Assembly: GCA_958295785.1 (NCBI GenBank) | Contig: OY282377.1 | Location: forward strand, 5,520,896 to 5,584,895 | DNA length: 64,000 nt | Source of the DNA: an uncultured Latescibacterota bacterium | Lineage (GTDB): Bacteria > Latescibacterota > UBA2968 | Direction: 5' to 3' | Shown: one piece after another, positions 29,166 to 39,404 of the stretch | Position numbering within the stretch: the first letter of the stretch is position 1 | How the letters are laid out: each line of letters begins with the position of its first letter | Made by a program: the position numbers and the translations under genes | Notes under the pieces: model-generated | Databases searched by the model: none | What the model saw: only the letters and a program-made list of their open reading frames with translations | What the model was told of the DNA's origin: nothing

Positions 29166-29993
29166 CTAAACAAACAAAGGCTGATCGCATTGTGGGACAA
29201 TGCCCGCTTCTTCTGCTCGCGCAAATAGGTCGGCAATGGCGGCCTCGCCATCTGCGCCGTAATCCAGGGTGTAATGGTTGACGTAGAGATCGATGTGTTG
29301 CTGCATCACCGCTTCGTCTATTTCCTGCGCGTGTTGGCGGATATAATTTTTGACCGCATCGGGATTGGCGTGTGCGTATTCAATGCTGGCGCGCAGGGAT
29401 TGGTCAATGTGTCGAATTTTCTCTTTTCCGAGATCGCGGAGGGCGAGAATGCCGCCGAGGGGAATGGGATGCCCGGTGTTTGCTTCCCACCATTCGCCCA
29501 AGTCCATGACTTTGTGCAAGCCGTAATCGGGATAGGTGAACCGCGATTCGTGGATGATCACGCCAGCGTCAACATGGCCTTTTTGCGCGGCGTCCATAAT
29601 CTCATCAAAGGGCATCGCGACGAGGTCGTCCAACGCGGGATTAAAGAGGCGCAGCAAGAGCGCGGCTGTGGTGAGCCGGCCGGGAATGGCGATGCGTTTG
29701 CCCAATAGATCGTTCGGGTCGAGCGCGTCACGGGCGACGACGAGCGGGCCACACCCTCGGCCCAACGCGCCTCCTGCATGCAACAGGCAATACCGGTCGC
29801 GCATCAAAGCGAGGGCGTGGAATGAAATTTTGGTCATGTCCAATTTGCCATTCATCGCCAGCCGATTCAAGGTCTCGATATCTTCGAGCACCTCGCGGCA
29901 GGTCGGCGCGCCATCAATTTTGCCGTGAACCAGACCGTAGAAGATGTACGTGTCATTGGGACACGGGGAATAGCCGAGAGAGATGGGGGACAT
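29166..29993 (-). CDS. mqnD: 1,4-dihydroxy-6-naphthoate synthase MqnD
   Basis: A 275-residue protein with the MqnD opening SLGYSPCPNDTYIFYGL. Also visible are the ligand-binding residues in KISFHAL, the GCGPLVVARD segment, IAIPGRLTTAALLLRL, GVIIHESRFTY and the ending VNHYTLDYGADGEAAI. MqnD converts cyclic dehypoxanthine futalosine to 1,4-dihydroxy-6-naphthoate in the futalosine route to menaquinone. The start at 29993 follows TTGAGG. mqnB is encoded upstream on the same strand after a 262-base repeat-containing gap. Confidence 0.93.
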   Translation of the reverse strand: MSPISLGYSPCPNDTYIFYGLVHGKIDGAPTCREVLEDIETLNRLAMNGKLDMTKISFHALALMRDRYCLLHAGGALGRGCGPLVVARDALDPNDLLGKRIAIPGRLTTAALLLRLFNPALDDLVAMPFDEIMDAAQKGHVDAGVIIHESRFTYPDYGLHKVMDLGEWWEANTGHPIPLGGILALRDLGKEKIRHIDQSLRASIEYAHANPDAVKNYIRQHAQEIDEAVMQQHIDLYVNHYTLDYGADGEAAIADLFARAEEAGIVPQCDQPLFV

Positions 29994-30255
29994 GGTGAAC
30001 CTCAAGCGAATGGATGGAACGGGGGACGACTGCGTAGCAGTTCATCGGCGAATCGGCGAATCGGCGGACGGGGGACAATGGGTCGTATCTCAGGCCAGTT
30101 CATCGACGAATCTCACCCAACCCGATCACCTCCGCAGGGGCGGTGCCCCTGTGCCCGCCCGAATCGGCGCATAATGGGGTAGGTAGGCCCTCCCATCATT
30201 TTCTTCGTGTCGTGAACTGCTATCGCAGCCACCATCCGTGGATACCACCTTGCCT
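29994..30255. repeat. Spacer with family E and family A repeats
   Basis: GGGGGACGACTGCGTAGCAGTTCATCGG (30018-30045) is a family E type hairpin. CGCAGGGGCGGTGCCCCTGTGCCCGCCCG (30134-30163) is family A. GAATCGGCG-like triplets surround them. No gene seen. Confidence 0.8.
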
Positions 30256-36747: not shown

Positions 36748-37320
36748 TTAGCGGCCAATTTCAGAATTGCGCGTCACTGTACGCGCCATCGCCATGAGCA
36801 CCTCGCCGTTTAGGCGCGCGCGATAATTGGGGTTGATATACTGAAATTGGATCGTTCGATCCGGTGCGATCACAAAAACAGAGGGCACGGGCAAAGGGCG
36901 CTTGCCGTTGTGCAAAAACGCAATGCCAAACGCCTTTGCCGCGTCAAAAGCCACATCCGATAGCTGCGTAAAGGCGAGGCCCAGGTGGTCGCGCACCTCG
37001 GCCAATTTTTCGGGTGGATCGGGCGCGATAGCGATGATTTCAAAACCCAAACTGTCCAGTTGTGCGTTCAGCCCTTGCAGTTGTCCCAACTGCCGGCGGC
37101 AATGCGGTCACCAGTGCCCGCGATAAAAAATCAAAACCGTGGGTTTTTTGTGCGTGCCCAGGTCAAAAGCGCGACCGTTCGCATCTGTGAGCGTCAGCGC
37201 GGGGACGCTATCGCCAACCATTAGGGGGCGCACCTGATGGGGCGCGTCGGGCAGTTGTGCATCAACCCGTCCAAAAGTGCCGAACACCACGAGCAATGCG
37301 ATCCAAGTGATTTTATTCAT
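36748..37320 (-). CDS. Peroxiredoxin-like selenoprotein (in-frame TGA read as Sec)
   Basis: One continuous frame of 191 codons with an in-frame TGA at codon 71 (37108-37110). It starts at ATG 37320 behind AAAAGGAG. A signal peptide (about 1-21) points to the periplasm. The redoxin domain follows: VPALTLTDANGRAFDLG, then VLIFYRGHW-U-PHCRRQLGQLQ. Relatives have a Cys at the TGA position (RGGWCPYC), so the TGA fits the peroxidatic residue, with Cys74 as partner in a UxxC motif. The downstream part (FEIIAIAPDPPEKL, AFGIAFL, VPSVFVIAPDRTIQFQYINP) is complete. A bacterial-type SECIS hairpin follows the TGA. Naive gene calling would split it in two. Selenocysteine genes are not in the window. Confidence 0.85.
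37077..37110 (-). promoter_or_regulatory. Candidate bacterial SECIS element downstream of the Sec TGA
   Basis: Fourteen bases after TGA, GCAGTTG and CAACTGC form a perfect 7-bp stem with loop GGA (37077-37093 on the plus strand). The loop begins 21 bases after the TGA and starts with G. This agrees with the general bacterial SECIS pattern of a short stem with a small G-containing apical loop about 16-37 bases after the UGA. Confidence 0.75.
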
Positions 37321-37377
37321 CGAGTCTCCTTTTTTGGGATGGACGCGCACGCCTCACTTAGGGGCAACGTGCGGCGA

Positions 37378-39042
37378 CTAACGCCGATAGATGATTGCAT
37401 CTCGCGTCTCCGCAAGGCGTAGAGGAAGTTGATGGGATTCCAATTCTCCTAGGGAGAGTATCTGTTTGATCTTACCCGGTTGCGCCCAGTTGCATTTTCC
37501 ATCTCCGTTGAGTTGTCTCAACAACGCGGGAATGCTCGGATGTTGGAGGGCAACGCGAATCCGCTTTGCATCGGCCTCGTTCCAACACGGGACGAAAGCG
37601 TGCATGGCTTGATTGGCTTGCCACACTTGCCCGGCCGCGCTGTTCAAGATGACGGGGTGGAAGTGGCTTTTGCCATAAGCTTCCCAAATAACCTTATAGG
37701 GCGCGAAAGAGTAGGGGCCAACGCCGAGCAGGGACCACCAGACGCCTTTGCCAATGGCAGAACGGATCAGGGTGCCTTTGCGATTTTCGAGTTTGTCTTT
37801 GGCTGCGGTGAGATGGTGTCTGAGTGCGGGGTGTTGCGCGATGTTTGCCCACGCAAGCGGTCTGCCCGTATTTCTATTGTACGGGATCAGAATCCATTTG
37901 TGCGGGGCAATGTCTTGCGCCCGCCATATCTCTTTTGTCGCGAGCGGAAAGAGAAATTCATCGGGCAGGTGGGTTGGCTTGTCCCCGAAAATGAAGACCG
38001 CATTCGCGCCACACGTATTCACGCCTTGCCGCGGTTTCTGGTGGGGCGACAGGGCGACTTCGATGGGGCTGCCCGCAGTGTCTCCGTTTTGCAGAACGCG
38101 CCACTGATCGCTGGGCATCTTGAGCGGAAGCGCGCGGTGCTCGATCCAGTTGCCATCGCGCTTTCTGAAATACCGAACGGGAAATTTTTGCGGCGCATCC
38201 ATCTGAAACTTGGCGCAACAATAAGAGGTGCCTATCTTTTTGAAGACTTCAGTCGCGGTAAATTCACAGACTTCATTGACTGCGAATTTTCTTTGGTTGG
38301 CCGTGTAGTCTCTGAATCCCCTGTGGGCATCGCCGCCCGAGAAGAGGGAGAGCGGCAGGTAGAAACATCCGATCCCTCCCTTGCACAGCAATTTGCCGAG
38401 AACGACTTTCAACGCCAAGGCCGCGATGTCGGTGCGCGAGGCGCCGAGGAGAACCCGTTTTTTATCGGGCACCAAGCCTTCTGCGAGAAAATAAGGCTTG
38501 AGTTTTTCTTTGTACGAATCGGGCAAATCGGCGAAATTCGCCCAAGGAGGATTGCCGCACAGGATGTCGTACTCAACATTGGGGGGAGAGGTGATCACAT
38601 CTAACGCGAGAAGTTGAGTTGCGGGGAAGTCGATCCCAAAGTCCCGCCGCGCCTTGTACCTGAAAGCTCGGAGGTGTGACGAGCGCACTTCGATCAAAGT
38701 CAGGCGCGAGAGAAGATCGGATGACACCCGAACGCCTCTTGATCGGGCGAGACGGAATAGCGCGAGCGCGAAAGCACCCTGTCCAGCGGTTGGGTCACAA
38801 ACAGAGGCCCCATCGATCCACGCATCGAAAATGCCCCACCGGTTGATGAGCCATTCCGCCCACCGAAGCGGGGTAAAAACTTGCCCGACCTCAACGGCGT
38901 GCGAATGTGAAATATTTGTACCCATTTTTATTTTCGCACCAAAGGCGCGGGAATCTTCGCGTTCGGATATGCCAGAACGCAATTCCTCAAAAATGTCAGA
39001 TAGCTTTTCTTCAATTTGGTCAGATACTGTTTTCAGATCCAT
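37378..39042 (-). CDS. N6-adenine DNA methyltransferase, no restriction partner seen
   Basis: A 554-residue protein. AdoMet-binding motif I is VCDPTAGQGAFALALFRL (about residue 80), preceded by GQVFTPLRWAEWLINRW. The catalytic motif IV is CGNPPWANF (about 162). The C-terminal half (about 290-554) is probably the target-recognition domain (WRAQDIAPHKWILIPYN, GVGPYSFAPYKVIWEAYG). The start at 39042 follows AAAGGAG. The layout resembles the methylase half of type IIG or type I-like systems. No nuclease domain is apparent, and neighbours are a peroxiredoxin and a glycosyltransferase. It may be a solitary regulatory or defence-remnant methylase. Confidence 0.82.
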   Translation of the reverse strand: MDLKTVSDQIEEKLSDIFEELRSGISEREDSRAFGAKIKMGTNISHSHAVEVGQVFTPLRWAEWLINRWGIFDAWIDGASVCDPTAGQGAFALALFRLARSRGVRVSSDLLSRLTLIEVRSSHLRAFRYKARRDFGIDFPATQLLALDVITSPPNVEYDILCGNPPWANFADLPDSYKEKLKPYFLAEGLVPDKKRVLLGASRTDIAALALKVVLGKLLCKGGIGCFYLPLSLFSGGDAHRGFRDYTANQRKFAVNEVCEFTATEVFKKIGTSYCCAKFQMDAPQKFPVRYFRKRDGNWIEHRALPLKMPSDQWRVLQNGDTAGSPIEVALSPHQKPRQGVNTCGANAVFIFGDKPTHLPDEFLFPLATKEIWRAQDIAPHKWILIPYNRNTGRPLAWANIAQHPALRHHLTAAKDKLENRKGTLIRSAIGKGVWWSLLGVGPYSFAPYKVIWEAYGKSHFHPVILNSAAGQVWQANQAMHAFVPCWNEADAKRIRVALQHPSIPALLRQLNGDGKCNWAQPGKIKQILSLGELESHQLPLRLAETRDAIIYRR

Positions 39043-39404
39043 TTCTACTCCTTTTATCATATTCGCAATTCAATCCGATTATACCCGCATAGCAAATGGG
39101 TGTCAACCGATTTGTAACACTTTCTACTTTGCTGTTAATCTCGCTATGGTGCAGAATTTTTGCACTTTGCACATGCCTTCAAAAGCCATACTTTATTTTT
39201 TGGCGAGCACGGGGGCGTCGCCCCTACATGCTTTTTGTGACTTTGAACTGGCTGTCGCCAGTTGTACCCCGCTCGTGCTTTTTGTGGCGAACCCCTCTTT
39301 CGCCTTCTTTTTTGACTGTAGAGAATCAGCTATCAGCCCCCTCGACTTCACCCCTACGCGCTTGTTTTTTTCACTGCTGACTGCTGAGAGCCTATTTTTC
39401 ACTT
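39043..39404. other. AT-rich spacer with repeats
   Basis: A promoter region for the methyltransferase lies near 39050-39120 on the minus strand (AT-rich). A family A repeat stands at 39202-39229 (GGCGAGCACGGGGGCGTCGCC). A family E type hairpin, AACTGGCTGTCGCCAGTTGTACCCCG, is at 39244-39270. CTGCTGACTGCTGAGAG heptamers stand at 39375. No gene seen. Confidence 0.75.

Follow-up and report, generated by a model that had tools for sequence, protein, structure and literature searches.

The window, by which we mean the whole stretch of 64,000 nucleotides analysed, is part of a single-contig genome of Candidatus Latescibacterota (5.66 Mb, 99.3% complete). On its minus strand an ATG at 37320 opens a frame of 190 codons that runs to a stop at 36748, with a TGA at 37110-37108 (residue 71) as its sole interruption; a single open frame was not found on the plus strand of 36748-37320. 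Without recoding, the gene splits into two minus-strand open reading frames, 37350-37108 (80 aa, GTG) and 37089-36748 (113 aa, TTG). Translated with TGA as selenocysteine (Sec, U), the product reads MNKITWIALLVVFGTFGRVDAQ...FYRGHWUPHCRRQL...LPVPSVFVIAP..., where the context FYRGHW-U-PHCRRQL contains a UxxC motif, U71-P-H-C74. The Pfam AhpC-TSA profile (PF00578) matches at 87 bits (cut-off 26) across the TGA, and Redoxin matches at 63 bits. The N-terminus, read by eye, resembles a signal peptide, with a short charged start, a hydrophobic core that is conserved in the orthologues and a VDA/Q cleavage-like site, and has no lipobox. In these respects the initial annotation stands, having joined two apparent frames into one gene for a peroxiredoxin (Prx)-like protein with a UxxC motif and a signal peptide.

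Table 1. Positions of the features discussed; those without a locus name refer to the window
Feature	Coordinates	Strand	Basis or remarks
Predicted selenoprotein gene, 190 aa, PF00578 Prx-like fold	36748..37320	-	Open with TGA=U; profile matches; AlphaFold2 model
In-frame TGA, predicted Sec71	37108..37110	-	TGA kept in orthologues; 34 homologues have Cys here
Cys74, second residue of UxxC	37099..37101	-	Invariant in alignment A1; aligns with Prx peroxidatic Cys and second Cys of ResA/TlpA
Pro146, cis-Pro place of thioredoxin (Trx)-like proteins, catalytic Arg place of Prx	36883..36885	-	Alignment columns; invariant in alignment A1
Candidate SECIS hairpin, 7 bp, GGA loop, TGA-to-loop 21 nt	37077..37093	-	Fold, genus invariance, covariation, Sec/Cys contrast
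Predicted signal peptide, residues 1-21 (MNK-ITWIALLVVFGTFG-RVDA/Q), without lipobox Cys	37258..37320	-	By eye; orthologues keep the hydrophobic core
Shine-Dalgarno-like AGGAG, 5 nt 5' of ATG	37326..37330	-	Sequence
Upstream neighbour	37378-39060	-	NPPWAN methyltransferase motif
Menaquinone biosynthesis protein	29166-30005	-	VitK2_biosynth, 277 bits
selD and adjoining tRNA-Sec gene	L036 1327-2448; L016 1497-1594	- (both)	In-frame TGA (CGGUASK)
Second TGA-containing AhpC-TSA gene, same genome	L002 1441-1878 (G000:C1:3480614-3480982)	-	PRASTGG-U-TAEG
Third TGA-containing gene (redoxin), same genome	L012 1429-2721 (G000:C1:3642407-3642757)	+	VGFN-U-GTC
Same-family paralogue in G004	L053 1501-1941	-	FFRGPW-U-PK-U

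The upstream neighbour is matched by PADLOC type IIG restriction-methyltransferase profiles (82 bits) with no Pfam match, and in several of the genus's species the selenoprotein gene follows directly after its C-terminus. The menaquinone biosynthesis protein encoded elsewhere in the window is of the futalosine-pathway type.

Conservation of the TGA codon and selenocysteine decoding

An orthologue is present in 11/11 sampled species of the genus, the other ten proteins being 73-77% identical to that of the window and each having one TGA. Among the 64 genomes of the wider phylum the TGA recurs at this codon in the orthologues of G004 (42% identity), G044, G045 and G061, and a TGA-bearing copy in G033 (L074) looks truncated; the TGA is thus found in 15/15 full-length Latescibacterota orthologues as well as in one truncated copy. 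The initial annotation had expected cysteine at this site in relatives (RGGWCPYC), and Cys rather than a random residue indeed fills the column in 34/34 Cys homologues read, within WCPYC, WCPFC or WCEYC motifs. Thirty of these homologues come from genomes of the Verrucomicrobiota group (reached via an Opitutaceae record), two come from plasmids, and two are Latescibacterota paralogues. In the maximum-likelihood tree a branch supported at 99/95 sets the Sec proteins apart from the neighbouring Cys proteins, and a single change is placed on the tree. Judged from this tree, the position of the Sec clade beside Cys homologues represents a clear Cys/Sec exchange.

The genome carries a tRNA-Sec gene (Rfam RF01852, 70 bits with a gathering score of 47; ARAGORN tRNA-SeC, anticodon tca), selA followed by selB as an adjacent pair, and a selD gene with an in-frame TGA at CGGUASK, whose product, selenophosphate synthetase, is likely itself a selenoprotein. 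All four genes for which a search had been proposed, selA, selB, selC and selD, are present, and because selB and tRNA-Sec are found in a genome of this completeness, absence of selB or selC does not stand against Sec decoding here. Every genome with a Sec orthologue has selA except G008, a fragmented draft MAG, and in G044 it is represented by a contig-end fragment only. Across the phylum selA is present in 46/64 genomes; the class to which the window's genome belongs seems to decode Sec commonly, and the phylum's other families rarely.

In the mRNA the sequence 3' of the UGA reads CCGCAUUGCCGCCG-GCAGUUG-GGA-CAACUGC, and the hairpin originally described, a perfect 7-bp stem with a GGA loop starting 14 nt past the TGA, is found at 37093-37077; the 41-nt stretch folds at -14.6 kcal/mol. 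Its properties lie within every limit of the bacterial SECIS model quoted in PMC13188914, namely a loop of 3-9 nt (here 3 nt), a stem of 4-16 bp (7 bp), a G in the first two loop positions (GG), a UGA-to-loop spacing of 16-37 nt (21 nt) and a minimum free energy of -7.5 or below (-14.6). By itself the hairpin is weak evidence for a SECIS element, because 11% of random synonymous recodings of the same peptide place a stem of 7 bp or longer here and 4% reproduce the identical seven pairs, and because the fold z-score of only -0.9 is not significant, shuffled sequence folding nearly equally well. Synonymous-site conservation over the hairpin is not significant as a stand-alone test (permutation p 0.36), and the Rfam SECIS models give no match to it, even at E = 10. 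It is raised above chance by its conservation: the 17-nt hairpin DNA is invariant in 11/11 species of the genus, two pairs are changed on both sides in the G044 orthologue (G-C to A-U and U-A to C-G), one of the two is altered in the G033 copy as well, and a mean of 6.1/7 register pairs is kept in Sec homologues versus 3.3/7 in Cys homologues. Pairing is 92.9% in register versus at most 47% when slid, and the hairpin region is the gene's longest run (6) of unchanged amino-acid-invariant codons.

From its presence in frame, the usual sign of a pseudogene, and from the truncated look of the G033 relative, the TGA might be taken for a genuine stop in a gene that is decaying or was mis-sequenced. 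This is exceedingly improbable, however, given that every one of the genus's 11 species and four more full-length orthologues have the identical TGA, that the downstream half is conserved at the protein level, and that homologues carry Cys and no random residues at the site; pseudogene and sequencing error alike are rejected on these grounds. Read-through of the TGA as another amino acid, Trp or a near-cognate, would give a selenium-free product and require no SECIS, but it too is very improbable in a genome with the full Sec machinery and a tca tRNA-Sec, with Cys at the site in relatives and a SECIS-like hairpin that covaries, and decoding as Trp is discarded for the same reasons. On the comparative evidence of TGA conservation, Cys homologues, Sec machinery, a Sec clade and a SECIS-type hairpin, this is a real and well-conserved selenoprotein gene.

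Position of selenium in the active site

The initial annotation had put Sec at the peroxidatic position, a claim that is to be dropped: Sec71 lies three residues upstream of Cys74, the residue that aligns with the peroxidatic Cys of Prx (TxxC), and the alignments place Sec71 at the thioredoxin-type position. When the family profile is aligned by HMMER with three archaeal PrxQ/Bcp structures (2cx3, 2ywn and 3hjp), no gap falls in the active site: Sec71 pairs with the Ser/Thr of PxxxTxxC, and Cys74 pairs with the peroxidatic Cys, which by counting is Cys49 in 2cx3 and is replaced by Ser in the chain of 3hjp. The same columns are obtained in a MAFFT alignment with peroxiredoxins of the same genome (L001 PLAYTDVC, L003 PADFTPVC and L002 PRASTGGU) and with that genome's TlpA-like proteins (WCGPC, WCKPC and WCPPC). 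A PxxxTxxU/C motif with Sec at the TxxC Cys column is absent, the Pro, Thr and peroxidatic columns being occupied by R67, U71 and C74; the conserved active-site Arg of Prx is likewise absent from its alignment column, where there is an invariant P146. The protein therefore lacks three of the four residues of the Prx site. Sec71 aligns with the first (nucleophilic) Cys of the TlpA/ResA CxxC, and the Trx-like set of UxxC and cis-Pro is present.

An AlphaFold2 model of the selenoprotein (mean pLDDT 74, pTM 0.72) matches Bcp/PrxQ and AhpE peroxiredoxins slightly above ResA, of which a CPHC variant is among the structure matches. Since the model matches Bcp/AhpE first with ResA closely behind, the predicted scaffold is Prx-like, and the active site, as its alignment columns indicate, is Trx-like. 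Selenium in a Prx-fold protein is not automatically at the peroxidatic residue, and a tempting misreading is corrected here.

Two other TGA-containing genes, an AhpC-TSA gene and a redoxin gene, occur in the same genome. The L002 product resembles PrxQ: it is a PxxxTxxU peroxiredoxin whose Sec occupies the genuine peroxidatic position. In L012 the redoxin is fused to choice-of-anchor D and dockerin-like domains, and there is a sub-threshold match to an OS_HP2 (seleno)protein model.

Proposed activity and alternatives

The protein is quite probably a UxxC thiol-disulfide oxidoreductase that is exported and built on a Prx fold, a selenoprotein of the 'Prx-like thiol:disulfide oxidoreductase' family; we infer Sec insertion, export, redox direction and partners as parts of this best explanation. 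SelB and Sec-tRNA(Sec) would decode UGA 71, directed by the hairpin just downstream, and the exported protein would form a reversible selenenylsulfide between Sec71 and Cys74 of UPHC, the selenium version of the CPHC motif of DsbA, and swap disulfides with partner proteins in the cell envelope. Its reduced state would probably be maintained by a DsbD/CcdA-type membrane electron carrier. The genome encodes a DsbD_TM protein, a possible electron source, and the gene neighbourhood includes no redox gene that hints at a partner.

The best fold matches, to Bcp/PrxQ and AhpE peroxiredoxins, the annotation of CxxC relatives as peroxiredoxin-like and the frequent use of Sec by peroxidases in general would all accord with a true peroxidase, in which Sec71 attacks peroxide and Cys74 resolves, making the protein an atypical peroxiredoxin with its nucleophile shifted three residues. 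Such an activity is nonetheless unlikely, as the Pro, Thr and Arg of Prx are all missing and the peroxidatic column holds Cys rather than Sec. The Latescibacterota Sec clade might constitute an exported enzyme in its own right, in which a Prx scaffold bears a selenium-containing, DsbA-like UPHC site and whose function differs from that of the UxxC relatives described so far: it would act as an oxidising selenium disulfide catalyst or as a new relay from peroxide to disulfide in the periplasm. We consider this distinctly unlikely. The likeness of the UPHC and CPHC tetrapeptides, on different folds, says little about redox potential. A thiol-disulfide oxidoreductase of the UxxC type is the reading that we prefer.

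Relation to known families

Prx (TXXU) and Prx-like (UXXC) selenoproteins are distinguished in PMC1088965, and PMC1794560 tabulates the 'Prx-like thiol:disulfide oxidoreductase' with Cys-to-Sec events. A 2026 review (PMC13188914) lists PF00578 UxxC/UxxU proteins as predicted with high confidence, with WP_010940744.1 as representative, and the 225 pfam00578 UxxC sequences named 'Prx-like 1' in the GOS study (PMC2398784) are probably the same UxxC family. Full-text literature searching found no selenoprotein study on Latescibacterota, a candidate phylum in which the gene described here is well supported as a selenoprotein gene; one text match names the phylum solely as a reconstructed genome.

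Several known systems resemble the protein in part. The Sec peroxiredoxin Prx (PF00578, PxxxTxxU) has the same Pfam domain and overall fold, whereas here Sec lies three residues earlier and the site lacks the Pro, Thr and Arg of Prx. The Prx-like SelL-related redox protein (NCBIfam NF040769) is the best or second NCBIfam match, at 39.7 bits and far short of the curated cut-off of 120 bits, but SelL has UxxU and the protein described here has one Sec. The paralogue in G004 has a UxxU motif, the double-Sec form known from SelL-like proteins, and its top NCBIfam match is SelL-related, under the cut-off. With the periplasmic oxidoreductases ResA/TlpA the protein shares export (predicted here), the start of the WCxxC helix, the cis-Pro and the alignment of Sec71-Cys74 over CxxC, although its best sequence and fold matches are Prx-type and its scores lie well below the NCBIfam curated cut-offs for ResA/TlpA/DsbE (36.4/170 bits for ResA, 30.6/230 and 15.7/123 bits). 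The RGGWCPYC peroxiredoxin-like proteins (e.g. Bradyrhizobium WP_309185500.1) have the same active-site surroundings at about 30-33% identity, but carry Cys rather than Sec and lack a conserved SECIS hairpin.

By its motif and domain the gene fits the published definition of the UxxC PF00578 family, on which its assignment is based. With the Prx-like thiol:disulfide oxidoreductases it shares PF00578, a UxxC motif where Prx has TxxU, a distant relationship to Prx, homologues with Cys and a bacterial SECIS; it differs in its Latescibacterota host, its signal-peptide-like start and the UPHC found in one Sec clade. The UxxC Prx-like family is already described, and what is new here is the host phylum and the predicted exported, UPHC-type Sec clade.
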